Below are positions 15,271 to 30,802 of a stretch of DNA of 64,000 nucleotides, piece after piece. The notes under the pieces are model-generated. The model made no database searches and was not told the DNA's origin. It worked only from the letters and a program-made list of their open reading frames with translations. Both the position numbers and the translations under genes were made by a program. Origin of the DNA: Aliiroseovarius sediminilitoris (GTDB lineage Bacteria; Pseudomonadota; Alphaproteobacteria; Rhodobacterales; Rhodobacteraceae); assembly GCF_900109955.1 (NCBI RefSeq), contig NZ_FOJB01000001.1, forward strand, positions 1,054,001-1,118,000, read 5' to 3'. Numbering within the stretch: the stretch's first letter is position 1; each line of letters opens with the position of its first letter.

Positions 15271-15638
15271 GGGACCCTCCTGTCTGTTGATTGAGAGACC
15301 CCAATCGTCAGACAGACACGCCCATTCCCAAAGTCTCGACCGTCAGATCATCGCAACGCGCCGGCCACAAGCGCCCCCGCCGCGCGAGCGGCTTCGTCCT
15401 CGTCCCGCATACCGGACCTTAATTGGTTTTCGATGAACGGCAGTGATGTGGAGATAGTGCTGAAGAAGTTTGTGTTTTGGTCTTTTGATTGCCCGCGATG
15501 GTCGGGCAGCCACCTCAATGTCTCGCACATGCGCTTTCGCTGGGAGCTGGAGCCGTAAGGATGGCTCAGGACTACAATTTCAAAAATCCGTGTTTGAAAT
15601 TCGCGTATAACTGCGAAAATCCGGCTAAGTGATTGAAA
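15271..15638. other. Intergenic stretch between IS91-like element and attachment repeat
   Basis: The left part, to about 15420, is GC-rich and probably the remaining terminal DNA of the IS91-like element. No convincing gene follows. A 41-codon plus-strand frame at 15433-15558 is unsupported. There is no integrase gene here, unlike the corresponding place beside the repeat at 30501. Confidence 0.5.
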
Positions 15639-15692
15639 TTTATTGGAGGCGAGTACCGGAATCGAACCGGTGTACACGGATTTGCAATCCAG
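15639..15692 (-). repeat. Attachment-site repeat containing tRNA-Cys 3' fragment (left copy)
   Basis: This 54-bp sequence is identical to 30501-30554. Read on the minus strand, it is a tRNA-Cys 3' part: an anticodon loop TTGCAAA (anticodon GCA), the T arm ACCGG-TTCGATT-CCGGT, the acceptor strand ACTCGCC, the discriminator T typical of tRNA-Cys, and an encoded CCA. The 5' half of the tRNA does not follow at higher coordinates, so this is a fragment. It marks an integration junction of the island to its right. Confidence 0.85.
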
Positions 15693-15731
15693 TGTATTTC
15701 GCTCCGAAAACAAGCCCTTAGGTCCCAAAAA

Positions 15732-15772
15732 GTATCAGGACATTTGTCGAACAAGTTGTGAACCTGATACCA
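15732..15772. promoter_or_regulatory. Inverted repeat and arm-type-like site inside the island's left end
   Basis: GTATCAGG (15732-15739) and CCTGATAC (15763-15770) are perfect inverted repeats. The 15-base GTGAACCTGATACCA (15758-15772) recurs with one change (GTGAAACTGATACCA) at 30444-30458, at the island's other inner end. Such paired sites next to an attachment core suggest arm-type binding sites of the island integrase. The same IR also lies just before the Rep-like gene and could regulate it. Confidence 0.5.
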
Positions 15773-15794
15773 CCCTTTTAGCAGGCTCAAAACC

Positions 15795-16667
15795 ATGAGC
15801 GGCATGGCGTTGATCTGGGCCGCGAACGTCAAAGGCCTGAAGCCCGCCGCCAAGATTGTGCTGATTCAACTGGCAGACTTTCACAACAAAGAAACGGGCC
15901 AATGCAACCCAAGCGCTCAGCGGTTAGCAGACGAATGTGAGATGGCCCGTGCAACGCTGTTCCGGCATATGGCCACCTTGGAGGAATGTGGCCTTGTCAC
16001 GCGGCATGCCCGTGGTGATGGCGACGGCGGGCGTGGGGCCAACCAGTATGAGTTGCACCTCGACATTACCCTCGGTCCGAGCGCGCGCCCCAAGGGTGGG
16101 GGCAGCGGTCCTGATAGGGTTGTGTCTCAAAATGAGACGGGGGGAAACGTCTCAAAAAAGCGGGGGAAAAGTCCCAAGGGTGAGACGGGGGTAGTCTCAA
16201 ATCGAGACAGGAACCTTACCATTGAACCTAGGAAAGAACCGCCTTCGCGCGGGCGCGAGGCGGCGGAGGCTGAGAAGATTTTGGCGGCGTATCCACCGGA
16301 CCGGCTACGCGGCAAAACAGCCTGTCTTGCCCAGATCGAAGAGGCCATGAAGGAAGGGATTGCACCGGAAGACTTTCTGCAAGCGGTCCAGGCCTACGCG
16401 ACCGACAGTGCAGGTTTCACCCGTTCCAAGGTCTGCTTTTCTGACAATTGGTTTCAGTCGCGTCGGTGGCTTGCCTATGTTGAGAAGCAAGCGGAAGACC
16501 GGGAGAAGGCGGCAGCGTTGCAGGCTGCTCACCAAGCGCGGCTTGCTAGCTGGATCAGTGATCGCAGCCCGATGTGCAAACACATAACGGCCAAGCAGAT
16601 CGACGGATTGCTCGCCTCAAAGCTGGTGACAGAGGCCCAAATCCAAGCCGCAGGCCTCAGATCATGA
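15795..16667 (+). CDS. Helix-turn-helix replication-initiator-like protein (paralog 1)
   Basis: This is a 290-residue protein. The N-terminal 95 residues are a winged helix-turn-helix (HTH_36 type): KIVLIQLADFHNKETGQCNP, then SAQRLADECEMARATLFRHM and ATLEECGLVTRHARG. A low-complexity linker (about 100-155) is encoded by 23-bp DNA repeats. The C-terminal part, from EAEKILAAYPPDRLRGK, matches the gene at 30803, including YTRSKVCFSDNWF-like FTRSKVCFSDNWF. Proteins of this layout occur beside mobilisation genes on plasmids of this group, so a replication or maintenance role is inferred. Its stop overlaps the mobC start. Confidence 0.7.
   Translation: MSGMALIWAANVKGLKPAAKIVLIQLADFHNKETGQCNPSAQRLADECEMARATLFRHMATLEECGLVTRHARGDGDGGRGANQYELHLDITLGPSARPKGGGSGPDRVVSQNETGGNVSKKRGKSPKGETGVVSNRDRNLTIEPRKEPPSRGREAAEAEKILAAYPPDRLRGKTACLAQIEEAMKEGIAPEDFLQAVQAYATDSAGFTRSKVCFSDNWFQSRRWLAYVEKQAEDREKAAALQAAHQARLASWISDRSPMCKHITAKQIDGLLASKLVTEAQIQAAGLRS
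16124..16208 (+). repeat. Iteron-like repeats inside the Rep-like gene
   Basis: Four units start at 16124, 16149, 16171 and 16194, that is 25, 22 and 23 bases apart. The ideal unit is a small palindrome, GTCTC-N5-GAGAC, followed by a G-run. Units 1 and 4 have both arms, unit 2 has the left arm, and unit 3 has a changed left arm (GTCCC) and a perfect right arm. Helical-turn spacing of this sort is typical of replication iterons, and some plasmids carry the origin inside the initiator gene. Confidence 0.55.
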
Positions 16668-17137
16668 CCGCTACCGACCCCACCGAAGAGCAAACAGCAA
16701 GGCGACCCATGTCATACGCTGGCGCTGCTGACACGGGACCTTGCGAGGGGCGGCAAGCCTCCCCTTCGAACCCCACCGGTGCGGGAAAAACCCGCACCAA
16801 AGAGCCGCTGACCGAGACCTTTGTCTTCCGCTGTACCGCGTCCGAGAAGGCCGAGCTGCGCGCCAAAGCCGAGGCCGCTGGCTTGCCCGCCGCGACCCTG
16901 CTGCGCGAAGCGCTTGGCCTGACCGAGGCCCGCCGCCGCAAGCCTGTGCCGCATGTCGATCCGGCGCTCGTGCTGGCCGTCGGGCGCATCGGCGGCAACC
17001 TCAACCAGATCGCCCGGTGGCTGAACCGCGCGATGCTGGCGGGCCGCGTTGACCTCGATGCCCTCACCGTTGCCCGCCGCCTGCTGACCATCGAGCGCCA
17101 GCTTGCCCAGATCGTGGAGGCCGCACGCCGATGCTGA
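16664..17137 (+). CDS. mobC: MobC-like relaxosome accessory protein
   Basis: This is a 157-residue protein of the MobC/MbeC family, which helps the relaxase open oriT. The C-terminal half holds the family signature: FRCTASEKAELRAKAEAAGL, then ALVLAVGRIGGNLNQIARWL with the conserved G-N-N/L-N-Q-I-A-R motif. The start at 16664 overlaps the stop of the preceding gene (ATGA), so translation is coupled. Its stop overlaps the relaxase start by seven bases. The order mobC-relaxase is the ColE1 order mbeC-mbeA. Confidence 0.85.
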   Translation: MTATDPTEEQTARRPMSYAGAADTGPCEGRQASPSNPTGAGKTRTKEPLTETFVFRCTASEKAELRAKAEAAGLPAATLLREALGLTEARRRKPVPHVDPALVLAVGRIGGNLNQIARWLNRAMLAGRVDLDALTVARRLLTIERQLAQIVEAARRC

Positions 17138-18654
17138 TCAAGTTCTTCCGCAACGGCAAAGGCGCGGGCGCAGGTCCGGTCGGCTATCTCGTCGCGGGCA
17201 AGGTGCTGGCCTACGACGACAACCGCGACCTGATCCGTGATGCGGACGGTCAACCGATGACGGTCACACGGGAGCCTTTGCCGGAGGTCCTGCGCGGCAA
17301 TCCCGACCGTACAGAAGCACTGATCGACGCCAGCCGCCACCAGTGGACCTACCGCGCGGGCGTGATCAGCTTTGCCGCAGAAGATGCCCCAACCGAAGAA
17401 CAGCAGGCCGAGGTCATGGACGGGTTCGAGCGTCTGGCCTTCGCGGGGCTGGACCCTGAGCAATATGAGGTGCTCTGGGTCCGACATACCCACGAAGACC
17501 GTGTCGAGCTTCACTTCTGCACGCCGCGCCTGGAGCTGACCTCGGGCCGGAGCCTGAACATCGCGCCGCCAGGTTATGAGAACGCCTTCGACAGCCTGCG
17601 CGATGTGATGAATCAGCGGCACGGCTGGGCCGATCCGATGGAGTTGGAGCGGGTCCAAGAGGTCCGCGACACCATTGAAACCCCGACCCGCGCTCAGGGC
17701 CGTGACGAGCTGCATGCGTGGATTCTGGATCAGGTCAGCGTCGGCCTGATCACCGACCGCGCCAGTATGCTCGACGCCCTCACCGATGCGGGCTTTGGCA
17801 TCCCGCGCGCGGGCAAAGCCTACCTGACCGCCCAAGACCCAGACACCGGCGAGCGCTGGCGTTTGAAAGGAGAGATTTTCCATGAAGACTGGCAAGCCGA
17901 CACGGCTGAGCGAGAAGTTGAACGCGGAACTGGACACGATACGGCAGGACTACGCCGCCTCGATGGCATCCCAATTGGAGAACTTCAGGACAGATTTGAA
18001 CAGCATTGCGACCAACGCGCAGCGTACAATCGAGACCGATACCCGCACCTTTCTGCGACAGAACAAGAGTTGGCTGACGATCTCGCCCTGGCTGATCACA
18101 GGGACGTTCTTGGTGGGGATCGTCTCGATGATGGCCGCGAGCTTGCTCTGGACGCTGATGCTGACCAGCTCGGAACTGACGGACTTGGGCCTGACACGGA
18201 TCGACAGGGAGGACGGGACATGGCTGGTGCTGGACCCGACCAAGACACGCCTGAGGACCTGCACGCTAGGCGGCAGGTCAGTGACGTGCATCAAGATCGA
18301 GGAGGATTAGATGACGACACCCCTGACAGCCTTAGAACGCGACTTGCTCGCCTGCGTCGAGCGGTTGGTGACGGCCTGCGAGGTCTCAGCCGCGGAATTG
18401 AGCGGGTTAGAGGCACGCTCGACGACCAAGATGCAGAGCCAGATGGATGGATTGGCCGCCTGCGTGTCAGTGCTCATTCAATCGCAAACGGCGTCCGTGG
18501 CTGCGTTGCACGGCTTGTTGAGCGAGGGCTCGAACTACGGGAAGCTGCGCACGCAACTCGAGACCAGCTTGAAATTAGTGAAAGCCGCCGAAGAGAGGTT
18601 GAGACAGAGCTAGAAGAGCGGGAGGTGGAGATGGACCGGGGGATGACGCATTGA
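17131..18654 (+). CDS. mobA: Relaxase of the ColE1 MbeA (MOB-HEN-like) type
   Basis: This is a 507-residue relaxase. It opens conjugative transfer by nicking oriT and binding covalently to the 5' end. The N-terminal 250 residues carry the catalytic region. VLWVRHTHEDRVELHFCTPR aligns with the ColE1 MbeA motif HxxxxRxELNF, with His in place of the usual Asn. The C-terminal half is Asp/Arg-rich and low in complexity, which is explained by two further genes read in another frame of the same DNA (17882-18613). It starts inside the mobC stop region. Confidence 0.85.
   Translation: MLIKFFRNGKGAGAGPVGYLVAGKVLAYDDNRDLIRDADGQPMTVTREPLPEVLRGNPDRTEALIDASRHQWTYRAGVISFAAEDAPTEEQQAEVMDGFERLAFAGLDPEQYEVLWVRHTHEDRVELHFCTPRLELTSGRSLNIAPPGYENAFDSLRDVMNQRHGWADPMELERVQEVRDTIETPTRAQGRDELHAWILDQVSVGLITDRASMLDALTDAGFGIPRAGKAYLTAQDPDTGERWRLKGEIFHEDWQADTAEREVERGTGHDTAGLRRLDGIPIGELQDRFEQHCDQRAAYNRDRYPHLSATEQELADDLALADHRDVLGGDRLDDGRELALDADADQLGTDGLGPDTDRQGGRDMAGAGPDQDTPEDLHARRQVSDVHQDRGGLDDDTPDSLRTRLARLRRAVGDGLRGLSRGIERVRGTLDDQDAEPDGWIGRLRVSAHSIANGVRGCVARLVERGLELREAAHATRDQLEISESRRREVETELEEREVEMDRGMTH
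17882..18310 (+). CDS. MbeB-like mobilisation protein nested in the relaxase gene
   Basis: This 142-residue protein is read in the +1 frame relative to the relaxase. A strong AAGGAG lies about eleven bases before its ATG. Residues 10-60 look like a charged coiled coil (SEKLNAELDTIRQDYAASMA), and residues 66-94 are a transmembrane segment (TISPWLITGTFLVGIVSMMA). Nesting of mbeB and mbeD within mbeA is known from ColE1 and related plasmids, where MbeB stabilises the relaxosome. The layout match makes a real gene likely; sequence homology to MbeB is inferred. Confidence 0.72.
   Translation: MKTGKPTRLSEKLNAELDTIRQDYAASMASQLENFRTDLNSIATNAQRTIETDTRTFLRQNKSWLTISPWLITGTFLVGIVSMMAASLLWTLMLTSSELTDLGLTRIDREDGTWLVLDPTKTRLRTCTLGGRSVTCIKIEED
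18311..18613 (+). CDS. MbeD-like protein nested in the relaxase gene
   Basis: This is a 100-residue protein that starts directly after the stop of the nested gene before it (TAG then ATG, no gap), in the same frame and also inside the relaxase coding region. It is helical and rich in Leu, Ser and Ala: LTALERDLLACVERLVTACE and YGKLRTQLETSLKLVKAAEE suggest coiled coils. ColE1 MbeD is a small nested coiled-coil protein linked to entry exclusion and mobilisation, so position and build fit. Its end lies 41 bases before the relaxase stop. Confidence 0.65.
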   Translation: MTTPLTALERDLLACVERLVTACEVSAAELSGLEARSTTKMQSQMDGLAACVSVLIQSQTASVAALHGLLSEGSNYGKLRTQLETSLKLVKAAEERLRQS

Positions 18655-18674
18655 TGTGCCAAAACCGATTGACA

Positions 18675-18698
18675 ATTGGTAACGTATATGTCACCAAT
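18675..18698. promoter_or_regulatory. Operator-like inverted repeat before the toxin-antitoxin genes
   Basis: A 24-bp imperfect palindrome has arms ATTGGTAACGTA and TATGTCACCAAT, matching at 10 of 12 positions. It begins right after a TTGACA (18669-18674) that could be a -35 element, and it ends seven bases before the chosen toxin start. This fits autoregulation by the antitoxin or toxin-antitoxin complex. Confidence 0.6.
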
Positions 18699-18705
18699 GG
18701 CTGTA

Positions 18706-19035
18706 ATGAATAAGCTTGTTGTCTATGTCACCGAGGCGGGGAAAACACCGTTCGACGATTGGTTCAATGGTCTGGATACGGCGGCGGCACTGAAGGTGCG
18801 AACGGCGCTTGCACGGATCGAGACCGGAAACCTTGGCGACGTGAAGCCAGTGGGCCAAGGCGTGTCAGAGCGGCGCATCACCTTCGGCGCCGGCTACCGC
18901 GTCTATTTTGGCAAAGACGGCGATACGCTTGTGATTCTGCTCTGTGGCGGCACGAAAAAGCGCCAGTCAAAGGACATAGAACAGGCCAAAGCATATTGGG
19001 ACGACTACAAGGCCCGCAAAGAGAAAGACGAATGA
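18706..19035 (+). CDS. RelE/HigB-superfamily toxin (addiction-module killer protein)
   Basis: This is a 109-residue toxin of the RelE/ParE fold, in the group annotated as addiction-module killer proteins. It starts NKLVVYVTEAGKTPFDDWFN and ends with ILLCGGTKKRQSKDIEQAKA, where the basic C-terminal KxQxxDIxxA motif is diagnostic. These proteins are usually ribosome-dependent mRNA interferases. The ATG at 18706 fits the family start; earlier in-frame ATGs at 18688 and 18697 lie inside the operator palindrome. The toxin-first order matches HigBA systems. Confidence 0.85.
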   Translation: MNKLVVYVTEAGKTPFDDWFNGLDTAAALKVRTALARIETGNLGDVKPVGQGVSERRITFGAGYRVYFGKDGDTLVILLCGGTKKRQSKDIEQAKAYWDDYKARKEKDE

Positions 19036-19036
19036 C

Positions 19037-19366
19037 ATGCCCCTGACGAAAGACTTCAAAGACACGATCAAAGCCCGAGCTGAGCGCGATCCTGAGTTTC
19101 GTTCGGGGTTGTTCCGCGAAGCCATCGAAGCGATGCTCAGCGACGATCTGGAGACCGGCAAGGTGTTGCTGCGCGACTATGTCAACGCCACGGTGGGATT
19201 CGAGGCCTTGGCGCAAGACATGGACAAAGACCCCAAGAGCCTGATGCGAATGCTCAGCGCCAAGGGCAACCCGCGCGCGGATAATCTGCTGGCCATGGTT
19301 GCCCGCTTGAAGCAGCGTGAAGGCGTGTCTTTTTCCATCACCTCAAACGACAGACTACACGCGTAG
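19037..19366 (+). CDS. HigA-like antitoxin of the addiction module
   Basis: This is a 109-residue antitoxin with a C-terminal helix-turn-helix (GFEALAQDMDKDPKSLMRML, then SAKGNPRADNLLAMVARLKQ), typical of the antidote paired with this toxin type. The N-terminal part (about 1-45) is helical and charged, suited to toxin binding. It begins one base after the toxin stop and is therefore co-translated. It probably represses the pair through the palindrome at 18675. A 160-base stretch without genes follows. Confidence 0.85.
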   Translation: MPLTKDFKDTIKARAERDPEFRSGLFREAIEAMLSDDLETGKVLLRDYVNATVGFEALAQDMDKDPKSLMRMLSAKGNPRADNLLAMVARLKQREGVSFSITSNDRLHA

Positions 19367-19527
19367 CTTTTCGGTCAACCAAGCTAAGCTGGACAAGTCC
19401 CTTGTGATGTCATTGACCGCGAGGTCTCAATGCTGTGATCCGGGGGCGGGGCGCGCGCATCATTATTCAGCCAAAACGTTGATCAGTAAAACAAAGCTTG
19501 GGTAGTCAAGTCGATCATTCTAATGGG

Positions 19528-19761
19528 TTAGGCTCTTGATAGATTTGACTTCTTTCGAACTACGAGCTCAAGTTCGTTTGCTTCAAGCAAAGATAGTACT
19601 GTTTCTAACCTTACACCTTGATCACCATTTTCTACTTTTGAAACCGTTGCCTGCCGAAGGTCAGCACGTTCCGCAATTTCAGCCTGAGTTGAGGCGGAAG
19701 CCTTTCTAGCTTCGGCGAGCAGAGCACCCAAGCGTTGCGGGCTAGAAATCAGACTATTCAT
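19528..19761 (-). CDS. HipB-like XRE regulator without a HipA partner
   Basis: This is a 77-residue single-domain helix-turn-helix protein. RLGALLAEARKASASTQAEI, then AERADLRQATVSKVENGDQG, aligns well with the HipB at 31764-32009 (QIGEALRRTRKARGWTQSDI, then SARTNLRVATISSLENGDAG). No hipA is adjacent. It is divergent from the type I restriction operon, and a perfect inverted repeat lies between them. It may work like a controller protein that delays restriction gene expression; that is inference. Confidence 0.8.
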   Translation of the reverse strand: MNSLISSPQRLGALLAEARKASASTQAEIAERADLRQATVSKVENGDQGVRLETVLSLLEANELELVVRKKSNLSRA

Positions 19762-19796
19762 CGCGCGTCCATTGCAAGAAAGATCACACTAGTCAG

Positions 19797-19814
19797 TATA
19801 CGCTTTTGCGTATA
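19797..19814. promoter_or_regulatory. Perfect inverted repeat between the HipB-like gene and hsdR
   Basis: TATACGC-TTTT-GCGTATA is a perfect 7-bp inverted repeat. It lies 36 bases before the HipB-like start and 67 bases before the hsdR start, and it overlaps AT-rich promoter-like DNA (GTATAATTGTATAG). The half-site core ACGC/GCGT resembles the TTACG/CGTAA half-site of the hipBA operators at 31681. Confidence 0.65.
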
Positions 19815-19881
19815 ATTGTATAGCCTAAGAACCTTCGCTCTGTACAGCTTAGCAAAGGGATTTTTGGAGTATTAAAAGCAA

Positions 19882-22236
19882 ATGTCGCTGCCCCCTGGAG
19901 AGAAGAAGAAGCTCAGTGAGTCCGATATCTGCGACCTTTATATTACCCCGGCACTGAAGCGCGCTGGCTGGGATCAGTTTACCCAGATAAGGCGAGAAGT
20001 GACTTTGACGCCGGGGCCAATCATCGTCCGCGGTAACATGTCTTCCCGCAACAAGAAGAAAAAGAAATTTGCCGATTACGTCCTATCCTGGGAGCCATCA
20101 CTTCCCGTGGCTGTATTGGAGGCCAAAGACAACAACCATTCTATAGGACACGGGATGCAGCAGGCGCTTGGCTACGCCGAGATCATGCAGATTCCAACGG
20201 CTTTCAGTTCAAATGGCGATGGTTTCGAACAACACAACAAGCACCCAAGCTCCGGCGAAGACATTGAAACATCTCTTTCTTTGACTGCGTTTCCAGACCC
20301 CCAAACCCTTTGGGCACGTTACAAATCGTTTCGTGGCATTGAAGATGGTGAGCAAACCTTGCTCATGGAGCCTTACCATGATGACGGGTCGGGCAAAGAG
20401 CCGAGGTATTATCAGGCCGAAGCGATCAACCGCACAATTGAAGCTGTCGCCAAAGGCAAGAATCGAGTGCTATTGGTCATGGCGACCGGAACCGGCAAGA
20501 CCTACACGACTTTTCAGATCATTTGGCGGCTTTGGAAGGCTGGTGCTGCAAAGCGCATTTTGTTTTTGGCTGATCGTAACATTCTTGTTGATCAGACTCT
20601 TGTGAACGACTTTAAGCCCTTTGGTTCAGTGATGACCAAAATTGGAAGTCGGAGAATTGATCCGTCTTATGAAATACACTTGGGTCTATATCAGTCACTC
20701 ACGGGCCGTGAAGAAAGTGATAAGACGTTCAAGACCGTTTCCCCAGACTTCTTTGATTTGATCGTCGTAGATGAGTGTCATCGCGGGAGCGCGTCCGAAA
20801 ACTCGGAGTGGCGTGAGATCCTCGAGTATTTCAAGGGTGCCATACAGATTGGTTTGACGGCGACGCCGAAGGAAACCAAAGACGTTTCGAGCAGCACCTA
20901 TTTTGGCGAACCAGCCTACACATACAGCCTGAAACAAGGGATCGAAGACGGGTTTCTAGCGCCTTACAAAGTAGTGAAAATCGATATCGACAAGGATGTC
21001 GAGGGTTGGACCCCGCCACCCGGCGCCATCGATGATCTCGGCAACCCGCTTGAAGACCGACAGTACAACCAGAAAGACATGGATCGACTTCTGGTGCTTA
21101 ACCAACGCACCAAGCTGGTTGCCGCGAGGGTTATGCAGCTTCTCAACGCGACTGACCCTTTCAGCAAGACCATCATCTTTTGCGAAGACATTGACCACGC
21201 GGAGCGGATGCGCAAGGCAATCGTAAACGCTGCAGGCCAGATCGCGATCGATAATCCACAATATGTCCGGCGTATCACCGGTGATACTAAGGAGGATGGC
21301 AAAGCCGATCTGGACAATTTCATCGACCCGGAAAGCAAGTTTCCCGTCATTGCGACAACATCGGAAATGCTTACCACTGGCGTAGATGCGAAGACCTGCA
21401 AGCTGATAGTCCTCGATAAAACGATCACATCCATGACCACCTTCAAGCAAATCATTGGGCGGGGAACCCGCGTCGATGAGGAGCATGGCAAGTGGTACTT
21501 CACCATCATGGACTTCAAAAAGGCTACAGAGCTTTTTAACGACCCAGACTTTGACGGGGAAGCGGTCGTTATCTACGAGCCAGGCAATGATGATCCGCCC
21601 GAACCTCCTGATCCCCCAATTGATCCGGAGGACGATCATTTGGAACTGCCAGATAGTACTGGAATAACCAAACTAGTCGTCAGCGGCGTTGAAGTGGAGA
21701 TCATTGCGGAACGCGTCAGCTTCATCGGTCCCGACGGTGCTTTGATCACAGAATCTTACAGGGAATTCGCGCGGAAACAGATTTTGACCGAGTTTTCGTC
21801 CTTGGACGACTTCATCCGCAAGTGGAACGACGCAGACAAGAAGGCCGCTATCATCCAGGAGCTGGAGGAGCATGGCATCTTGTTGGAGAACTTGGCCGAA
21901 GAGGTCGGCAAGGATTTCGGCGATTTCGACCTGCTCTGCCACATCGCATACGACCAGCCGCCCCTCACGCGCGCGGAGCGGGCCAACAACGTCAAGAAGC
22001 GCAACTACTTCACAAAATACGGAGACGAGGCCCGCAAGGTCTTGTCGGCGCTTCTGGACAAGTATGCGGACGAAGGTGTGCGCACGATCGAAGACGCCCG
22101 CGTCTTGCGTCTTGACCCCTTCGATGAAATTGGAACACCGGTCGAGATCATCCGCGATGTGTTCGGCGGCAAAGAACAATACGAACAAGCCGTAAGAGAG
22201 CTTGAGCAACAGATATACAGACAGGCGGACGGATAA
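19882..22236 (+). CDS. hsdR: Type I restriction enzyme R subunit
   Basis: This is a 784-residue restriction and translocase subunit. The N-terminal PD-(D/E)xK nuclease region shows ADYVLSW...LPVAVLEAKDNNHS, then an RMI-like QALGYAEIM. Helicase motifs follow: ATGTGKTYTTF at about 200 (Walker A), VVDECHRGS at about 295 (DECH), GLTATPKE, and IIGRGTRVDEEHGKW (motif VI). The C-terminal part is of the EcoEI type, and its length suits that smaller class. ATP-driven translocation leads to cleavage of unmodified DNA. GGAGT precedes the ATG. hsdM starts directly after its stop. Confidence 0.92.
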   Translation: MSLPPGEKKKLSESDICDLYITPALKRAGWDQFTQIRREVTLTPGPIIVRGNMSSRNKKKKKFADYVLSWEPSLPVAVLEAKDNNHSIGHGMQQALGYAEIMQIPTAFSSNGDGFEQHNKHPSSGEDIETSLSLTAFPDPQTLWARYKSFRGIEDGEQTLLMEPYHDDGSGKEPRYYQAEAINRTIEAVAKGKNRVLLVMATGTGKTYTTFQIIWRLWKAGAAKRILFLADRNILVDQTLVNDFKPFGSVMTKIGSRRIDPSYEIHLGLYQSLTGREESDKTFKTVSPDFFDLIVVDECHRGSASENSEWREILEYFKGAIQIGLTATPKETKDVSSSTYFGEPAYTYSLKQGIEDGFLAPYKVVKIDIDKDVEGWTPPPGAIDDLGNPLEDRQYNQKDMDRLLVLNQRTKLVAARVMQLLNATDPFSKTIIFCEDIDHAERMRKAIVNAAGQIAIDNPQYVRRITGDTKEDGKADLDNFIDPESKFPVIATTSEMLTTGVDAKTCKLIVLDKTITSMTTFKQIIGRGTRVDEEHGKWYFTIMDFKKATELFNDPDFDGEAVVIYEPGNDDPPEPPDPPIDPEDDHLELPDSTGITKLVVSGVEVEIIAERVSFIGPDGALITESYREFARKQILTEFSSLDDFIRKWNDADKKAAIIQELEEHGILLENLAEEVGKDFGDFDLLCHIAYDQPPLTRAERANNVKKRNYFTKYGDEARKVLSALLDKYADEGVRTIEDARVLRLDPFDEIGTPVEIIRDVFGGKEQYEQAVRELEQQIYRQADG

Positions 22237-23715: not shown

Positions 23716-25487
23716 CGGATGTGAACCAACTCATCACTGACCATCTGGATGTCTGGACGGCAGCAATCGAGAAGAAATCCAGCGCGGGCCGTGGAAATAG
23801 CGGCGCGATCACGCTCTACGGCATCAAGAAACTGCGCGCTTTGATACTTGAGCTAGCAGTTCGAGGAAAACTGGTCCCTCAGGATGAAAATGATGGCGGT
23901 GTTGCTTTCTATCTTGATGAGATCTTGCGACTACGCAACGAGCTCGTAAGGCACGGCAAATCGAAGAAAACAAAGGCGCTACCTGAAGTTGCTAAAGGTG
24001 AGGTTCCCTTTGATGTGCCAGAAAGCTGGGTATGGACGAGGCTACAGGACGTCACCGGATATATTCAAAGAGGAAAGAGCCCTAAGTATGCCGAGGACGG
24101 TCAGGTTCAGGTTGTCTCGCAAAAGTGCGTGCAGTGGGGGCAGTTCGACTTAGAGAAAGCCAGGTTCATCAACGACGCGAGCGTTGATACCTACGGCCCT
24201 GAGCGTTTCTTAAGGAGCGGCGACATTCTCTGGAATTCAACGGGCACTGGTACCGTAGGGCGAGTATTGGCCATTGAAGTTGAAAACGATCAGACACTAG
24301 TGGCGGACTCGCATGTTACGGTTGTTCGGTCAATTTCTGGATGCCCAAGGTTCCTTGAGGTGTTCCTTTCCTCTGCGGGTATTCAGGATCGTATTGACCC
24401 AACACATGAACGCTCCTTGGTGTCAGGTTCGACGAAGCAAGTCGAATTGAACGTGAGTACAGTTACCGCACTTCCGGTTCCGCTTCCGCCGCTCGAAGAA
24501 CAAAACCGCATCGTGGCCAAAGTGGATGAGCTGATGGGGCTGTGTGATGCGTTGGAGCGGCAGGCCGAGGACAGCCTCAAGGCGCACCAAACCCTCGTCG
24601 AAACCTGCCTCGCCACCCTCACCAACAGCCAAACCCCCGAAGACCTCACCCAAAACTGGACCCGCATCGAAGCCCACTTTGACACGCTGTTCACGACCGA
24701 GGAGAGTGTGGCAAGGCTTGAAACAACCGTGCTCGAGCTGGCCATAAGAGGTTTGTTGGTTTCCCAAGACCCGAGCGACGAACCAGCGGCCACATGGTTA
24801 GAGCGTGCTATCCGCACCAGAGACAAACTCGTCAAAGCAAAGACAATCCGAAAGCCAAAGGCCACAAAGGATGTGGACGGATTGCCAAAGCCGTATGCTC
24901 TGCCAGAATCGTGGACTTGGGCCAGATTGCCAGAGGTCGGCGAGCTTGCTAGAGGAAAATCAAAACATCGGCCTCGGAATGATCGGCGTCTGTTCGACGG
25001 CGGCGAATACCCTCTTGTTCAAACGGGGGACGTCGCCCGCGCAAATCCGTTCATTGTCGAGTCTGAAAGCTTTTATAACGACTTTGGCCTCCAGCAGAGC
25101 CGACTCTGGCCGAGAGGGACACTCTGCATCACCATCGCCGCGAATATCGCCGATACTGGCATCCTCGCAATAGACGCTTGTTTTCCAGACAGTGTGGTTG
25201 GCTACATCCCGTTTGAAGATGACGTTGACGTCACCTACTTTGATTATTTCATTCGCACCGCCAAGAACGATCTTGAACACTACGCTCCATCTACGGCGCA
25301 AAAGAACATCAATTTAGAAATCCTCGGCGAGGTTCTTGTGCCTTTGCCACCGAAGGCGGAGTTAAGCCGAATTTGCGATCGAGTGTCCGACTTGTTGAAA
25401 ATTTGTAAAATGCTGCGCCAGCGAATTCGAGACTTAGAATCTTCCAGCGTCAAGCTGGCCGACACCCTCACCTCAAAAATTCATTGA
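23712..25487 (+). CDS. hsdS: Type I restriction-modification specificity subunit
   Basis: This is a 591-residue specificity subunit with the usual two-fold internal repeat. The first target-recognition domain opens VPFDVPESWVWTRLQDVTGY and the second opens PYALPESWTWARLPEVGELA. The conserved spacers LELAVRGKLVPQDEND and LELAIRGLLVSQDPSDE, with LPPLEEQNRIVAKVDELMGL, form the helical separators that set target spacing. The start is GTG at 23712, overlapping the hsdM stop. The recognised sequence cannot be read from the protein. Confidence 0.93.
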   Translation: MTDVNQLITDHLDVWTAAIEKKSSAGRGNSGAITLYGIKKLRALILELAVRGKLVPQDENDGGVAFYLDEILRLRNELVRHGKSKKTKALPEVAKGEVPFDVPESWVWTRLQDVTGYIQRGKSPKYAEDGQVQVVSQKCVQWGQFDLEKARFINDASVDTYGPERFLRSGDILWNSTGTGTVGRVLAIEVENDQTLVADSHVTVVRSISGCPRFLEVFLSSAGIQDRIDPTHERSLVSGSTKQVELNVSTVTALPVPLPPLEEQNRIVAKVDELMGLCDALERQAEDSLKAHQTLVETCLATLTNSQTPEDLTQNWTRIEAHFDTLFTTEESVARLETTVLELAIRGLLVSQDPSDEPAATWLERAIRTRDKLVKAKTIRKPKATKDVDGLPKPYALPESWTWARLPEVGELARGKSKHRPRNDRRLFDGGEYPLVQTGDVARANPFIVESESFYNDFGLQQSRLWPRGTLCITIAANIADTGILAIDACFPDSVVGYIPFEDDVDVTYFDYFIRTAKNDLEHYAPSTAQKNINLEILGEVLVPLPPKAELSRICDRVSDLLKICKMLRQRIRDLESSSVKLADTLTSKIH

Positions 25488-25578
25488 GAAAACATGTATT
25501 TAAAATCTGTCCGGTGCTACGAGCACAGAAGCCTTAGCCAACTTACCTCAACCTCTCTGATTTGCGAGAGGTTTGCCC

Positions 25579-26340
25579 ATGCCCTGGCCTGACTTCACTG
25601 AGTTGACCTTCGGCTTCGCTTTCCTGCGCGAGCTGGAACAAAATTACGTGCTTGGCGGCAAGTTTCCGAAGGCCCCCGACTTCATCAGCCAGGGTGCCGA
25701 GGCGACGAAAGGCTATGATGTAGAAGTCACTCTTGACGGTTCGACGCCTGTCTTTATCCAGCTGAAACGCTCCTACGTCCTGGTGCAGCACAACGCGAGA
25801 GAGATACAGCAAGGGCTTTATGCCGCCCCGAAGGTTTATCGCATGAACCTGCACAAGAACGGTAAGTACCGCCAACACAAGGCCCTGCAAGGGCTCGAAG
25901 CGCTCGGCAATGCCGTTTTCTACGTGACCAGCCAGATACACACACCCAAGGAATTCTCAGACGCCTACAGCGGCGGAACGGTTGTGTCGCAGGCCTCAGC
26001 AATGTTTGCGCCCAATGAGATCATTTTGCCGGACGACACGAAGGATCATCACGTCAGCTTCAAGCCGAATGATAGTTTTGGCTACGTGTATTCCAAAGAA
26101 CCGCACCAGTTCGAACGAAAGTTCCAGAGCTTTGATAGCTGGCTTCCGGCTGTTGGGCAGCGCGCGCAAGGTGCGAAAGAGAACCGGCAACTGCTTGAAA
26201 AGACGGTTGAGTTCTTGAAGAAGAAGCGTGGCCCCCGCGATCCTGTCCGCCAAATGATCCGCGACCAACCGCTCGAAGCCCAAGCCGCGATCCTCGCCTA
26301 TTTTATCCTCGACGCCCAACTGACCTTCGTGAAGACATAG
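25579..26340 (+). CDS. Putative PD-(D/E)xK nuclease-like protein
   Basis: I do not recognise this 253-residue protein as a named family. Near the N-terminus, an acidic helix (FTELTFGFAFLRELE), then GYDVEV and PVFIQLKRSYVL, are spaced like the restriction-endonuclease fold of Mrr-type enzymes, with D47, Q61 and K63 as candidate catalytic residues. The rest is mostly helical. GAGAGG lies seven bases before the ATG. It follows hsdS by 91 bases and precedes the OLD-like ATPase by nine, so it forms a two-gene unit with the latter. A DNA-cleaving partner of that ATPase is the best guess. Confidence 0.5.
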   Translation: MPWPDFTELTFGFAFLRELEQNYVLGGKFPKAPDFISQGAEATKGYDVEVTLDGSTPVFIQLKRSYVLVQHNAREIQQGLYAAPKVYRMNLHKNGKYRQHKALQGLEALGNAVFYVTSQIHTPKEFSDAYSGGTVVSQASAMFAPNEIILPDDTKDHHVSFKPNDSFGYVYSKEPHQFERKFQSFDSWLPAVGQRAQGAKENRQLLEKTVEFLKKKRGPRDPVRQMIRDQPLEAQAAILAYFILDAQLTFVKT

Positions 26341-26349
26341 GGGAAATCT

Positions 26350-28197
26350 ATGCGCCTAAAATCTGTCTGGATCAGCGAATATAAGAACCTTCGCGACTTC
26401 ACGCTCACCTTTGACGGCGACAGCTTCCTCGACATCTTCGTCGGCAAGAACGGCACGGGTAAGTCCAACTTTTTCGAGGCCCTGGTGGAGATCTTCAACT
26501 TCGTCTTTGCCTCGACGAAGCGGCGCAGCGAGATCAGTTTCGACTTCGATCTGTTCTACGAGATCGATGGTGATGACGTGCGCGTATGTTGTGAGGGTGG
26601 CCAGTTGCAGGTCAACGGAGCGAACCGTTCGAAAATCGCCGACGCGCTGACACCCGACAACGTTATCATCTACTATTCCGGTCACAGCGACAAAATCACG
26701 TCTACCGTAGATCAGTACTCCCGGGCCTACGCCCGCCGGAACCGCAAGTGGACCGGCGAGGAGGCGCGGGAGTTCATCAGCATCGGCGCGGAGTACAAGG
26801 AGATGCTGCTTTCGATCCTGTTAATGCAGCCTGACGATTGTGCGGCCCGTCGCTACATCTGCCAGAAGCTGGGGATCGAGGTCACGTCTGAAACAGTCAC
26901 GCTTCGGCTTTCGCCGCCCAGGTTTAAGCACAGCGATGTCGAAGTTGGCGATGTGGCTTCGTTCCTATGGGGGGCGAAGGGCCAATCACTCGTTTTCGTT
27001 GAACGGTTGCTCAACTGTGTTAGGGGCGAGTTCACACGAGACTCGATTTATGACCGTGGGCAAGATCGATATACTATCCGCATTAATCTTGAGCTCTTCC
27101 GTGAAGAGTTTGCCGAAGCGTCGTCGTCTGATCTTTTTCGCCAATTCGACAACCTTAAAACACTTGGCATGTTTGAGGGCTTGTCCATTCCGATCGGCTT
27201 GGGCGACGGAAGGCCGATCCTTGTCGGAGATTTTAGCGACGGTCAGTTCCAATCCATTTACATTTTTGCCATCACGGAATTCTTCAAGGACCGTAATTGC
27301 ATCACGCTCCTCGATGAACCAGACTCCTTTCTGCACCCGGAGTGGCAGTTTAGCTTTCTCAAGCAGGTAGAAGACATTGCGGCCACCGAAGCCGCCCAGA
27401 CCAATCACGTTCTACTCAGCAGTCACAGTGCTTCGACGATCGTCGAGGCCAATGAACCGCAGATACGGCTTTTTGAGATTGCGGATGGCAACGTCTCGGC
27501 GGTGCAGCGTGATAAAGCGGCAGTAGTTCAGTCACTCTCGGCTGGGCTAATTACGTTTAGTGAGCGTGAGGCGCGCCTCAACATTTACCACAATCTCAAG
27601 AACACCAATGGGCCAGTACTCATGGTTGAGGGAGTAACGGACGAAATCATCTTCGAAACAGCTTGGCGCAAGTTGTATGGAGCAGAGGTGAACAGGCCCT
27701 TTGAGATATTGAGCGCATTTTCTTGCACAACACTTGGCCGTTTGATGCGAAGCAACGAATTCTACCATGATAATCAGGGGCGCACAATTTTTGCGTTGTA
27801 TGATTGGGATGAAGCTTACAACGAATGGAACATGAACCACAGTCAAGTTGTTCAAAACGATGTTTCGCGTTGTTTGGTAAAAAAGCGGAATGGAGTGGAC
27901 GGCTACAACCTGATGTTGCCAGTTTCCGAGGAACATAGCTGCTACGGACAAGTTGTGAACGCAGCCACCGGGGAGCATTATAAAAGCAAGTCAAGTTTTC
28001 CCATGGAGCTGCTTTTTCGTGATGCGCCTGGAGTAGGCGCACATTTTGAAATCGACCCGACGCGCCCCGGCGATTGTCAGCGCTTCAAGGGAGACAAGGC
28101 AACCTTTGCTAAGGAAATAGTTCCCGGTCTACCGCCTGTGGCGTTTGAACCCGCCAGGCCCGTTTTTGACTTTATCCTGCATACTATCGGCCAATAA
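26350..28197 (+). CDS. OLD-family-like AAA ATPase with TOPRIM domain
   Basis: This is a 615-residue protein of the OLD type. The N-terminal ABC/SMC-like ATPase has Walker A GKNGTGKSN (33-40), signature SDGQ (296-299), Walker B TLLDEPDSFLHP (about 319-330) and LLSSHSAS (H-loop, about 356-362). The C-terminal TOPRIM nuclease domain has VEGVTDE (E427, D431) and the ALYDWDE acidic pair at about 485-487. OLD proteins act in phage defence, for example in Gabija, PARIS and retron systems. Here the partner is the nuclease-like protein before it, which is not the helicase seen in Gabija. Confidence 0.82.
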   Translation: MRLKSVWISEYKNLRDFTLTFDGDSFLDIFVGKNGTGKSNFFEALVEIFNFVFASTKRRSEISFDFDLFYEIDGDDVRVCCEGGQLQVNGANRSKIADALTPDNVIIYYSGHSDKITSTVDQYSRAYARRNRKWTGEEAREFISIGAEYKEMLLSILLMQPDDCAARRYICQKLGIEVTSETVTLRLSPPRFKHSDVEVGDVASFLWGAKGQSLVFVERLLNCVRGEFTRDSIYDRGQDRYTIRINLELFREEFAEASSSDLFRQFDNLKTLGMFEGLSIPIGLGDGRPILVGDFSDGQFQSIYIFAITEFFKDRNCITLLDEPDSFLHPEWQFSFLKQVEDIAATEAAQTNHVLLSSHSASTIVEANEPQIRLFEIADGNVSAVQRDKAAVVQSLSAGLITFSEREARLNIYHNLKNTNGPVLMVEGVTDEIIFETAWRKLYGAEVNRPFEILSAFSCTTLGRLMRSNEFYHDNQGRTIFALYDWDEAYNEWNMNHSQVVQNDVSRCLVKKRNGVDGYNLMLPVSEEHSCYGQVVNAATGEHYKSKSSFPMELLFRDAPGVGAHFEIDPTRPGDCQRFKGDKATFAKEIVPGLPPVAFEPARPVFDFILHTIGQ

Positions 28198-28206
28198 GAG
28201 CCAAAA

Positions 28207-28476
28207 CTACTCTTCGCCATAGAAATAGAACTTACGGCGCGAGACGTCGCTGTTTGTCAGTAGTATTTTCCATAGCGCTTCGCCAATAAATGCGAGGATA
28301 GCCCCGGCAACGCCAAGGTGAAGCAGGAACAGGGTGTAGACGTCCCAAAAGTGGCCGGTTTCAGAGCGATAGGAGATGAAGCCAACGCTGGTGACGACCA
28401 GTAGGACAATCCCCATCACGCGCAAAGAATTGGCGAATTTGTTGATTGGCGTCTTAGGGTCTTTCAAATGTTTCAT
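28207..28476 (-). CDS. Small two-helix membrane protein
   Basis: This is an 89-residue protein with two transmembrane segments: about 17-36 (MGIVLLVVTSVGFISYR) and about 46-66 (FLLHLGVAGAILAFIGEALW). The N- and C-termini are charged and probably cytoplasmic. It begins 14 bases after the XRE gene's stop in the same direction, so both are likely one operon. It converges with the OLD-like gene, ending ten bases from it. The function is unknown; a membrane partner of the repressor or an accessory defence protein are both possible. Confidence 0.6.
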   Translation of the reverse strand: MKHLKDPKTPINKFANSLRVMGIVLLVVTSVGFISYRSETGHFWDVYTLFLLHLGVAGAILAFIGEALWKILLTNSDVSRRKFYFYGEE

Positions 28477-28489
28477 CGGGTTGTCCGCC

Positions 28490-28897
28490 TTAGCCAATGG
28501 CCGAAAAGAACAGCTTTGCCTCGCTTTGCGGCGAGGTGCCCTTCGAAAGGGCTTGCTCAAAGATGTAGTGTGTGAACTTTTGTATTTCCGCGCTGGAAAA
28601 CGTCCTCTTGTTCGTTTGCGCGTGATCAAACACAGCCTGCGCGGTTTCCCCGGCTAAACGAGCGGACTGCTCACTGTCAGGCACGGAGCTTCCATAAACC
28701 AGCCACATGAGGCTCTTGTCGAACTCTTCGCAAAACTTGACTGCGATCGAGAGCGGCAGCTCCCGTTTTTCAAGCTCGTAATTCTTATAAGATTTGTCAG
28801 CGATCCCCAGGATCGCTGCGACTTTGTTTTGAGGATAGCCAAGCTGACTGCGTACGCTCAGCATCCTTTGGCCAATTCCAATCAATACAGTTGACAT
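28490..28897 (-). CDS. XRE-family phage-repressor-like regulator
   Basis: This is a 135-residue protein with an N-terminal helix-turn-helix: RMLSVRSQLGYPQNKVAAIL, then GIADKSYKNYELEKRELPLS. The C-terminal half is helical without a peptidase domain, so it is not a LexA/CI-type self-cleaving repressor. The start at 28897 (MSTVLIGIGQRM) is chosen over upstream options. It is divergent from the excisionase-like genes and integrase at 28988-30419 and is thus the likely repressor of island excision. Confidence 0.8.
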   Translation of the reverse strand: MSTVLIGIGQRMLSVRSQLGYPQNKVAAILGIADKSYKNYELEKRELPLSIAVKFCEEFDKSLMWLVYGSSVPDSEQSARLAGETAQAVFDHAQTNKRTFSSAEIQKFTHYIFEQALSKGTSPQSEAKLFFSAIG

Positions 28898-28901
28898 TCG
28901 G

Positions 28902-28944
28902 ACAAATGTTCCCATATTTGGACTTACGTAACCTTTTGTTGCGT
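28902..28944. promoter_or_regulatory. Operator-like repeats between the repressor and excisionase genes
   Basis: Two inverted repeats lie in the 90-base divergent region. CAAAT and ATTTG arms bracket GTTCCCAT at about 28902-28919. ACGTAAC (28926-28932) and GTTGCGT (28938-28944) pair at six of seven positions around CTTTT. Their placement fits a repressor switch of integrative elements. Confidence 0.4.
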
Positions 28945-28987
28945 ATTCTTTCTATTGATATCACTAAATGCCAAAGAGGAAAGAACT

Positions 28988-29194
28988 ATGGACGATTGTT
29001 CCCTGCTTACCCCGAGAGAATTGGCAGCTCATAGCGGCTGGCCTGAGAAGCGGATCAGGAAGTTGATAGCCACCAGAAGCATTCGATTCCTCAAGAACGG
29101 GACTAATTTCCTACTGCCGCAGGACGCGGTTCAGGACTACATCGCGCGGAATATGGTGGAACCTGACGAGCGTTCGGGCGCGAGCAAGCCATGA
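28988..29194 (+). CDS. Excisionase-like helix-turn-helix protein
   Basis: This is a 68-residue protein with a MerR/excisionase-type motif: LLTPRELAAHSGWPEKRIRK, then LIATRSIRFLKNGTNFLLPQ and DAVQDYI. This is the HTH_17 layout used by recombination directionality factors and AlpA-like proteins. The ATG at 28988 is preceded by AGAGGAAAG. It overlaps the next small gene by four bases and lies 190 bases before the integrase gene, so it probably steers excision. Confidence 0.72.
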   Translation: MDDCSLLTPRELAAHSGWPEKRIRKLIATRSIRFLKNGTNFLLPQDAVQDYIARNMVEPDERSGASKP

Positions 29195-29406
29195 GCCGGG
29201 CAGGGCAAACACCCATCATGGCCAGCGAGACGACCGCCGCGCGGTTGCTCGATTTGCGCACGAACGAGTTCAAGGCTTTGGTCGATGAAGGTCACCTACC
29301 GCCGGGGCATGAAATTGCGCCCGGCGTTGTTCGTTGGGATACTGAGACGCTCAAGCGAATTTCAGGTGGGGATGTGACAGGATTATGGGATCAAATTCAG
29401 TGGTAG
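29191..29406 (+). CDS. Small DNA-binding-like protein before the integrase
   Basis: This is a 71-residue protein. TTAARLLDLRTNEFKALVDE, then GHLPPGHEIAPGVVRWDTET, looks like a second HTH_17/excisionase-like fold with a beta-wing. It overlaps the gene before by four bases and the integrase gene by 22, so all three form one operon. It may assist the other excisionase-like protein or set the integrase level. I could not match it to a named family. Confidence 0.6.
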   Translation: MSRAGQTPIMASETTAARLLDLRTNEFKALVDEGHLPPGHEIAPGVVRWDTETLKRISGGDVTGLWDQIQW

Positions 29407-30419
29407 GCCGACGCAAGAAATACCTTTGGCAGCATCCGTCTGGCCGTTGGTATGTGCGCAAGAGCGTCAACGGCAAGATGTTCTATCTGGGGCGGATCAC
29501 GGCGGAGGAAGGCACGGCAGAGTTCGACCAGCAGTACTGGGAGATCGTCAGCGGGAAGAAAGCGGTCTCCAAGACATCATGGGGCGCTTTGATTGATGCG
29601 CTGCGCGAGACGGACAAATGGAAAGATTTTTCGCCGCGCTATCGGCGCGACCTTGAGCAAGTTTTTGAGTATTTGACCGAAAAGATAGGGCGCGCTGACG
29701 TGGCACGCCTGACCCAAGCCGACATTTATGACGCCATGGAAAAGAACCGGCATCGGGTCAGGTTCGCCAATTACATCCCGACCGCGATCAGCATGTTATC
29801 CAAAATGGCGATGCGCAAGCGCTGGCGCAAAGACAATCCCGCGATTGATATTGAGCCGTTGAGGGTTCCGAAGGACCGCAAGAAACCGCATTTGCCGTGG
29901 ACGGATTGGGCGGTCGAAAAGATGCGGGAAGAGGGTGAGCCATTGCCCCGCCTGATTTTTGAGATTGGTGTGGGCAGTGTACAGCGTCCTGGTGACTGGG
30001 TGGACTTCCAGTGGGGCGACTATGACGGCGATACCCTCAAGCTACGTCAGAACAAGACAGATACCGTCCTTTCACTGCCCTGTACGATTAAACTCAAGGC
30101 GGCACTGGACGGTGCGAAGGCTGATCTGGGGTTCACGCCTCATCCATCGCGCCACATCCTGACGCGCGCTAATGGTTCGAGGATGGATTATCACGCGATG
30201 GCGCGTGTCATGGTGCGCGAGCGTAAGCGGTTGGACCTTATGGCCCATGACCAGCACGCTTTGCGGTATCGCGGCGTGATGGAATTGGCGTGGGCGGGCT
30301 GCACTGACGATGAAATCGCCAGCTACAGCGGCCACACATCCAAAGAGATGATCATCAAATATGCGGGCGAGGCTCGGCAAATCATGCGGGCGAGGCAGGC
30401 GGTAGCAAAGCGCAAATGA
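29385..30419 (+). CDS. int: Site-specific tyrosine integrase of the island
   Basis: This is a 344-residue tyrosine recombinase. An N-terminal arm and core-binding region (KKYLWQHPSGRWYVRKSVNG, then FEYLTEKIGRADVARLTQAD) leads to the catalytic domain. Catalytic residues include Arg in VGSVQRPGDWVDFQW, HALRYRGVMELAWAG (HxxR) and SGHTSKEMIIKY (His and the nucleophile Tyr). It ends 82 bases before the tRNA-Cys-derived repeat at 30501, the classic location of an island integrase beside its attachment site. It probably recombines the two 54-bp repeats. Confidence 0.9.
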   Translation: MGSNSVVGRRKKYLWQHPSGRWYVRKSVNGKMFYLGRITAEEGTAEFDQQYWEIVSGKKAVSKTSWGALIDALRETDKWKDFSPRYRRDLEQVFEYLTEKIGRADVARLTQADIYDAMEKNRHRVRFANYIPTAISMLSKMAMRKRWRKDNPAIDIEPLRVPKDRKKPHLPWTDWAVEKMREEGEPLPRLIFEIGVGSVQRPGDWVDFQWGDYDGDTLKLRQNKTDTVLSLPCTIKLKAALDGAKADLGFTPHPSRHILTRANGSRMDYHAMARVMVRERKRLDLMAHDQHALRYRGVMELAWAGCTDDEIASYSGHTSKEMIIKYAGEARQIMRARQAVAKRK

Positions 30420-30443
30420 CCCCGAACAGAACAGGCACAGAAC

Positions 30444-30469
30444 GTGAAACTGATACCAGAGGTGATACC
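30444..30469. promoter_or_regulatory. Arm-type-like sites beside the right attachment repeat
   Basis: GTGAAACTGATACCA (30444-30458) matches GTGAACCTGATACCA at 15758-15772 at 14 of 15 bases. A second, shorter GTGATACC follows at 30462-30469. Both lie between the integrase stop and the attachment repeat. Confidence 0.5.
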
Positions 30470-30500
30470 CAATGAGCAGAGAAATTCGTAACCCATTGAT

Positions 30501-30554
30501 TTTATTGGAGGCGAGTACCGGAATCGAACCGGTGTACACGGATTTGCAATCCAG
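30501..30554 (-). repeat. Attachment-site repeat containing tRNA-Cys 3' fragment (right copy)
   Basis: This 54-bp sequence is identical to 15639-15692 and contains the tRNA-Cys 3' part from the anticodon stem to CCA on the minus strand. As on the left, the DNA beyond it does not restore the 5' half of a tRNA. The flanking bases after both copies also resemble each other (AAAACAA.., then CTTA..GG), as expected if related elements inserted at the same site. Confidence 0.87.
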
Positions 30555-30696: not shown

Positions 30697-30802
30697 AAAT
30701 AGAAAAAGCCTGTCAGCTTTCACTGAACATTAGCATGGGCCAGTGTCTCTTCGCAAACGCTCAGTCGGCTTTTTCGTGGCCTCTAACCGGCGAGGTGGTC
30801 CA

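Follow-up and report, generated by a model that had tools for sequence, protein, structure and literature searches.

The stretch analysed here (the window: 64 kb of the genome of Aliiroseovarius sediminilitoris, G000, contig C1, positions 1054001-1118000) contains a 14.9-kb segment, element A, which is very probably an integrative and mobilizable element (IME) inserted at the 3' half of a cysteine transfer RNA gene (tRNA-Cys). It now stands in a tandem array with an integrative conjugative element (ICE), element B, and a decayed island, element C. The array is an instance of site-specific accretion, a described process, in a family of elements that carries defence genes and often stacks. The sites, the gene content, the array itself and its single and tandem relatives are read directly from the sequences. 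Positions are window coordinates, which run on past both ends of the window; genomes are labelled G and loci L.

Element A is bounded by two identical 54-bp sequences, as had been claimed in a note made from the window sequence alone (the original prediction). Identity stops at both ends of the 54 bp, and a chance origin is negligible (about 2e9 position pairs x 4^-54). The copies also have the extent foreseen, from anticodon to CCA: each is the 3' half of a tRNA-Cys, from the anticodon stem through the encoded CCA. ARAGORN calls no tRNA in the window; neither repeat is thus completed into a gene, as expected, nor does a complete tRNA-Cys overlap either one, an outcome that would have spoken against the prediction. 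A search of the same genome with the copy 1 region returns three places, namely copy 1, copy 2 and genome positions 1138297-1138359. The flanking-genome search proposed in the note does find the complete gene: an intact tRNA-Cys (ARAGORN) lies on the minus strand at genome positions 1138313-1138386, or window coordinates 84313-84386, outside the window, with its own integrase alongside. It is the single intact tRNA-Cys in G000 with this 3' half. The copies agree with it over 47 bases (TGG...TCC; for copy 1, 47 bp are identical), and the last two bases differ (AG vs. GC). It stands 53.8 kb to the right of copy 2, at the right end of the array, whose order is decayed element C, element A (15639-30500), element B (30501 to about 84312) and tRNA-Cys. 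There are therefore three attachment (att) site copies in one direction and one intact target gene. The integrase of A (IntA) ends 81 bases before copy 2, so that the close adjacency originally noted holds and the distance then given, 82, is off by one. IntA and the integrase of B (IntB) are 32% identical over 318 columns. Rep-like genes stand directly right of both repeats and are indeed paralogous: BLASTP gives one C-terminal alignment of 149 columns at 54% identity, and no meaningful N-terminal alignment.

The same arrangement recurs elsewhere. One scan of genome contigs with IntA yielded 35 loci. They come from 34 assemblies, one of Tateyamaria contributing two contigs, and their titles place all of them in Rhodobacteraceae, Rhodobacterales or member genera except for one Rhizobiaceae-group bin; some of the host genera are ones that we take to belong to Rhodobacteraceae/Rhodobacterales. 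A tRNA-Cys site follows the integrase in all 31 scorable loci (30 scored by pattern, L131 by its intact tRNA), as an intact tRNA-Cys in 21 and as a fragment like copy 2 in 10, the second site often lying beyond the 10-kb flank. Genomes with the segment but without repeats, which would have contradicted the prediction, were not found among them. The four unscored loci are L114, which ends inside the site (45 bases present), L141 and L144, which end within or at the integrase, and L139. Beyond the fragment, the next element or an intact tRNA is visible in half of the ten fragment loci (L112, L122, L124, L130 and L137); the other five (L117, L120, L121, L126 and L134) are scored up to the fragment. 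The intact tRNA-Cys lies 5.8-9.5 kb beyond the fragment in L122, L130 and L137, and the fragments of L112 and L124 are followed by Rep genes 90-91% identical to that of B, which is the A|B order of G000. L137 is a triple array: an IntB relative (94%), truncated where the locus ends, is followed by an A-type element, by a third element whose integrase is 39% identical to IntB, and by tRNA-Cys. Since the neighbours there come in another order, element order is not fixed. The IntA and Rep-like genes of L137 each match in two frames, and its A-type element may be decaying. Within the genus, at least 12 of 20 relatives have at least one tRNA-Cys 3' fragment; site counts are lower bounds, the 40-relative site search having scored only 12 first-look candidates per genome in most cases. 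A fragment in G008 separates an IntB relative (97%) from a Rep relative (94%), and one in G016 lies between an integrase 39% identical to IntB and a relaxase 69% identical to that of A.

Two side observations concern these loci. Some sites in L119, L137 and L120 have a tRNA-Cys 3' half whose T stem is altered on both sides. The altered version is that of the intact tRNA-Cys in L119, where the distal fragment has the common one, and the element there may have rewritten the T arm of the host tRNA. In L076/L117 (G021), an A-type element (IntA 93%) lies between site copies that are both followed by similar sequence, with no tRNA called in the locus.

Table 1. Features of the tRNA-Cys array, in window coordinates (aa, amino acids; ORF, open reading frame)
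Feature	Position	Strand	Remarks
Element C, decayed island	1-15638		truncated Rep and HipBA; metabolic and regulatory genes
IS91-type unit	13183-15270	-	Y2 transposase 13183-14379 and integrase-like ORF 14392-15270; beside copy 1
Attachment-site copy 1 (tRNA-Cys 3' half)	15639-15692	-	read as element C/element A junction; identical to copy 2
Element A, predicted 14.9-kb IME	15639-30500		two bounding sites; Pfam and PADLOC content; homologous modules elsewhere
Rep-like HTH_36 protein of A (290 aa)	15795-16667	+	Pfam HTH_36 2.3e-13
NikA/MobC-like relaxosome protein of A	16574-17137	+	Pfam NikA-like 2.1e-12, MobC 3.6e-5
MobA/VirD2-type relaxase of A (507 aa)	17131-18654	+	Pfam Relaxase 6.8e-6
Putative toxin-antitoxin-like pair of A	18676-19366	+	Gp49/DUF891 protein 18676-19035 (Pfam Gp49 3.8e-5); 109-aa protein 19037-19366
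Type I restriction-modification genes of A	19882-25487	+	hsdR 19882-22236, hsdM 22237-23715, hsdS 23712-25487; Pfam, PADLOC
255-aa protein and PtuA/AriA-like AAA ATPase of A	25573-28197	+	ATPase 26350-28197; Pfam/PADLOC scans
Tyrosine integrase IntA (344 aa)	29385-30419	+	Pfam Phage_integrase 2.3e-6; 35 relatives
Attachment-site copy 2 (tRNA-Cys 3' half)	30501-30554	-	element A/element B junction
Element B, predicted 53.8-kb ICE	30501-64000		continues to tRNA-Cys at 84313-84386
Rep-like protein of B	30743-31666	+	paralogue of 15795-16667
HipBA-type pair of B	31764-33301	+	HipA 32009-33301, Pfam HipA_C 6.6e-51; 81-aa partner ORF unscanned
SspA to SspD DNA phosphorothioation genes	37677-44059	SspA -; SspB, SspC, SspD +	PADLOC, Pfam
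Helicase, ATPase and PLD genes of B	44315-48667		after Ssp genes; Pfam
Relaxase of B	52628-54463	+	Pfam Relaxase 2.4e-12
VirD4/TraG coupling protein of B	54456-56348	+	Pfam T4SS-DNA_transf 1.1e-85
VirB mating-pore cluster, start	62230-64000	-	continues outside window; VirB6-like 62230-63228, VirB11-like 63422-64417
Integrase IntB (343 aa)	83213-84244		outside window; ends 68 bases before tRNA-Cys 3' end

Element A has the predicted gene set of an IME. Between its flanking att sites there is a putative integrase of its own, together with its own mobilization genes (NikA/MobC-like and MobA/VirD2-like), and no mating-pore gene is found among the 11 ORFs scanned, 28490-28915 and smaller ORFs falling outside that scan. 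A plasmid of Ruegeria conchae encodes a protein with 71% identity to the relaxase, in a match that overlies features annotated as a relaxase and a MobC protein, and the Rep-like protein also has a RepC N-terminal match, which is under Pfam's cut-off. The gene pair that follows the relaxase is probably toxin-antitoxin-like, its 109-aa member having no family in the Pfam scan. The 255-aa protein has none in either Pfam or PADLOC, and may form a second defence pair with the PtuA/AriA-like ATPase.

The ends of A recur with different genes between them. Aligned with L111, A matches over 15644-19403 (91%) and at the right end from 28206 (94%), and with L118 over 15644-19368 (88%) and from 29201 (89%), in each case with no alignment in between; since only the left backbone and the right end align, the cargo differs. 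The cargo of A itself stands beside an intact tRNA-Cys in L116. Ten cargo proteins from L111, L113, L115, L118, L119, L137 and L133 (the last lacking the A backbone) were scanned with PADLOC at 1e-5. Five have a match (an HNH nuclease, a type III-like methyltransferase, a type IIG enzyme, an HEC-01A-like ATPase and an EcoRI-type methyltransferase); the other five, including one HSP70-like protein, have no PADLOC match. Exchange also seems to reach inside the restriction-modification genes: compared with L114 and L116, HsdR is 99% and HsdM 96-98% identical, and HsdS only 37-38%. In the hsdS DNA the centre (about 24476-24707) is 90-91% identical and both outer parts are unaligned, a pattern that fits a swap of both target-recognition regions. 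Separately, a row of ORFs of 513-622, 125 and 838 aa occurs in the related elements L118, L124 and L135; of the L118 proteins, that of 838 aa is HSP70-like, and that of 622 aa has no Pfam or PADLOC family. This row is possibly an undescribed defence set.

Element B has the predicted gene set of an ICE, its att sites enclosing genes for an integrase, a relaxase, a coupling protein and a mating pore. Its Pfam matches fit VirB2, 3, 4, 5, 6, 8, 9, 10 and 11 as well as two SLT transglycosylases (VirB1-like), the VirB numbers being assigned from Pfam names, with no separate search for VirB7. Transporter and oxidoreductase genes lie between the VirB cluster and IntB, and there is an ArdC-type gene. 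No SspE match is present among the element B proteins scanned. In the stretch that holds the Ssp genes and the helicase, ATPase and PLD genes next to them (37677-48667), a HATPase gives a weak MzaB match, and an RTasSbcB-like nuclease is encoded nearby at 34132-35499.

From its sequence, element C is taken to be a relative of B that has decayed. Its left part is marked by a block of 2,090 bp (coordinates -881 to 1208), which is 91.2% identical to the Rep-HipBA end of B and has the same orientation; its HipA is 96% identical to that of B, and its Rep gene is cut at the left side. Neither a transfer gene nor an integrase of the IntA/IntB family is present among the ORFs scanned, 10 of the larger ones. 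The right site is kept and the left tRNA-Cys site is absent. Because the strict definition of a cis-mobilizable element (CIME) has both att sites kept, C can only be called a CIME-like relic. The integrase-like ORF at 14392-15270 was considered as C's own integrase and rejected, as it recurs with the IS91 transposase on plasmids (of 9 matching records, 7 cover at least 80% of the ORF pair) and is not meaningfully similar to IntB. The IS91-type unit is single-copy in G000 and lies about 370 bases from copy 1. Between them, no integrase remnant is found in 15271-15638, only a 232-bp match to the outer-site flank of G004. As for the lost left site, a possible candidate is a stretch of L057 (about 8241-8260) that resembles a tRNA-Cys 3' end; it may belong to an insertion sequence and was not used.

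According to the original prediction, both junctions are internal to a tandem array. The array itself is confirmed, with the qualification that its leftmost member has lost its left tRNA-Cys site and, among the ORFs scanned, lacks a same-family integrase. The right junction is internal, being that of A with B. Copy 1 is best read as internal too, with less certainty than copy 2. It is preceded by CTAAGTGATTGAAATTTATT, which by eye is like the integrase-end sequence before other sites of the IntA family, and the truncated Rep and HipBA genes of a B relative lie further left; the reading follows from these two features. Alternatively, copy 1 would be the chromosomal outer end of the array, and everything to its left ordinary chromosome. 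The 232 bases that resemble a G004 outer-site flank point that way, as does the lack of a same-family integrase among ten ORFs, where the only integrase-like one sits in the IS91-type unit. This alternative is nonetheless decidedly improbable, as the block resembling B, in B's orientation, lies further left, the bases just before copy 1 resemble element ends, and the flank that borders tRNA-Cys in G011, or the island in G007 and G014, is about 1.35 Mb away. Less probable again is a single composite element (15639-84312) that moves as a unit, the repeat at 30501 being no more than a dead relic inside it. Its excision in one piece could use copy 1 and the tRNA, and the A|B-type order is found again in L112 and L124, but in 21 of the 31 scored loci an intact tRNA-Cys is the immediate neighbour of an IntA relative, L137 has another neighbour order, and IntA itself is of full length, with relatives of up to 97% identity. 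Some points do weigh against an IME lying inside an array: the Pfam match of IntA is modest; in L139 the IntA relative is truncated and its site breaks off after 17 bases of the tRNA; the 232 bases to the left of copy 1 adjoin the outer site in G004 and are possibly chromosomal there; and part of the case for copy 1 as internal is a short end signature, assessed by eye.

With A taken as an IME within the array, we infer its excision and transfer, and the order in which the elements arrived, as follows. Element A would have inserted through its own tyrosine integrase, either into the tRNA-Cys 3' half or into a neighbour's copy of it. Each arriving element would have supplied the 3' half of a rebuilt tRNA-Cys gene, adding one more 3' fragment to the locus, which would explain why one intact gene stands at the right end. 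A would then excise with IntA, be nicked by its own MobA/MobC, and leave through the channel of B or of another conjugative element; or else A and B may leave together. The relaxases of A and B have no meaningful similarity, and the use of B's channel by A is for this reason an assumption.

The outer edge of the array is not what a simple accretion at tRNA-Cys would leave, since the expected chromosomal flank is missing and a tRNA-Gly relic is found in its place. The ancestral left flank of tRNA-Cys is absent from the window and the 14 kb to its left, by nucleotide and protein comparison with relatives; a flank of ancestral type (flank Y) is found at 2.418 Mb of G000. At the left edge of the array, a 53-base match (L006 12998-13050, coordinates -1002 to -950) corresponds to a decayed tRNA-Gly 3' half, which stops at the anticodon and carries substitutions. 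By eye, its 3' flank is like that after the second tRNA-Gly in G006, G007, G012, G014 and G016, and less alike in G011, G017 and G005. The DNA to the left of the relic (flank X) adjoins a tRNA-Gly pair in 8 of 9 relatives asked and was not found in the ninth, G014. In G000 the intact tRNA-Gly pair is at 2417396-2417590, with flank Y from 2418465. This puts flank Y at a distance of 1.28 Mb from the tRNA-Cys gene, and of 1.37 Mb from the left edge of the array. In G011 the same DNA is the neighbour of tRNA-Cys, and in G007 and G014 it adjoins the tRNA-Cys island at its outer end. Samples of G000 (33 stretches, some overlapping) and G011 (41 stretches) were compared. The segments 1030-1049 kb and 2418-2455 kb of G000 correspond, reversed, to 2381-2348 kb and 1000-965 kb of G011, and 1138-1170 kb and 2390-2407 kb correspond, forward, to 1001-1021 kb and 2311-2326 kb. 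These junctions amount to an inversion of about 1.36 Mb relative to G011, with breakpoints at about 1053 kb (the tRNA-Gly relic, at the left edge of the array) and about 2418 kb. Because the relic lies at the array edge and flank Y beside the tRNA-Gly pair, both breakpoints fall at tRNA integration sites. An element may have entered tRNA-Gly and then recombined with the tRNA-Cys array; recombination between the two islands would in that case have caused the inversion. In the gap between the relic and the half Rep gene, there is a scrap that resembles the DNA before tRNA-Cys in G022 (83% over 53 bp).

Not everything agrees with a single inversion. A nested segment of G000 (1.25-1.86 Mb) is reversed again relative to G011, and 17-20 kb of G000 matches G011 at 2900 kb on the same strand; more than one rearrangement therefore separates the two genomes. 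In a comparison of left flanks from 11 relatives, moreover, only 3 share flank Y and the other 8 flanks differ. The inversion may have been made by homologous recombination, by illegitimate joining or by an integrase. Catalysis by an integrase acting on two inverted att sites, rather than homologous recombination between the islands, seems unlikely. It has a precedent between tRNA sites in pTN3 of Thermococcus nautili (PMC5495485), and the breakpoints here are the tRNA-Cys array and a tRNA-Gly 3' half that is cut at the anticodon. The join is, however, eroded and messy, with a scrap like an element's right end and then a Rep gene cut in half, not a clean att hybrid; the 3' halves of tRNA-Cys and tRNA-Gly differ widely, and in PMC5495485 tRNA-Leu and tRNA-Thr sites did not recombine. 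Mobile repeats commonly cause misjoins, so that an assembly error might also be considered. This is very hard to credit when the paralogous blocks are only 91% identical, the tRNA-Gly relic has both an ancestral-like 3' flank and substitutions, the 874 bases between tRNA-Gly and flank Y are unmatched among the compared loci except by a 167-bp stretch of G011 (73%), and the sampled blocks beside both breakpoints fit an inversion.

Among the papers listed by literature searches, none was on the A-type family or on Rhodobacteraceae tRNA-Cys elements. Accretion arrays of streptococcal ICEs, IMEs and CIMEs are reportedly treated in works by Pavlovic (2004) and Bellanger (2011). The closest parallels are found among the elements of streptococci, where ICEs, IMEs and decayed elements stacked at one target 3' end are described as accretion (PMC5704250). 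As in those arrays, distantly related integrases share one site specificity, and a decayed member, an IME and an ICE are stacked at a target 3' end with one target gene intact. Unlike them, the present array has a Rhodobacteraceae-type host, a tRNA-Cys target and a VirB-type ICE, and its decayed member C lost the outer site at a chromosome inversion. Element A also resembles the restriction-modification- and toxin-antitoxin-carrying IMEs of the same source in its integrase, own mobilization genes, Rep-like gene, toxin-antitoxin-like pair and restriction-modification genes, and in that no mating pore was found; set against them, its family has conserved ends with different cassettes between them in several genera (L111 and L118 vs. 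L114 and L116). Chromosome inversions at tRNA genes have been ascribed to the integrase of pTN3 (PMC5495485). The case described here is similar in that a large inversion has its two breakpoints at different tRNA genes, both targets of integrative elements; it differs in concerning a bacterium, in its eroded junction with element fragments, and in that an integrase is only a candidate for the role.

These results define a hotspot in a marine bacterial family where mobilizable defence islands lie beside likely conjugative helpers, so that hitchhiking, joint excision and cassette exchange become testable. They also provide a bacterial case of a megabase inversion with both of its breakpoints at tRNA integration sites. 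More tentatively, and rather less likely than not, stacked tRNA hotspots in Rhodobacteraceae may be hubs of chromosome architecture, where elements at tRNA-Cys and tRNA-Gly recombined, through an integrase or through sequence they share, and so flipped some 1.36 Mb, and their IMEs may be a shared chassis for exchangeable defence cassettes.

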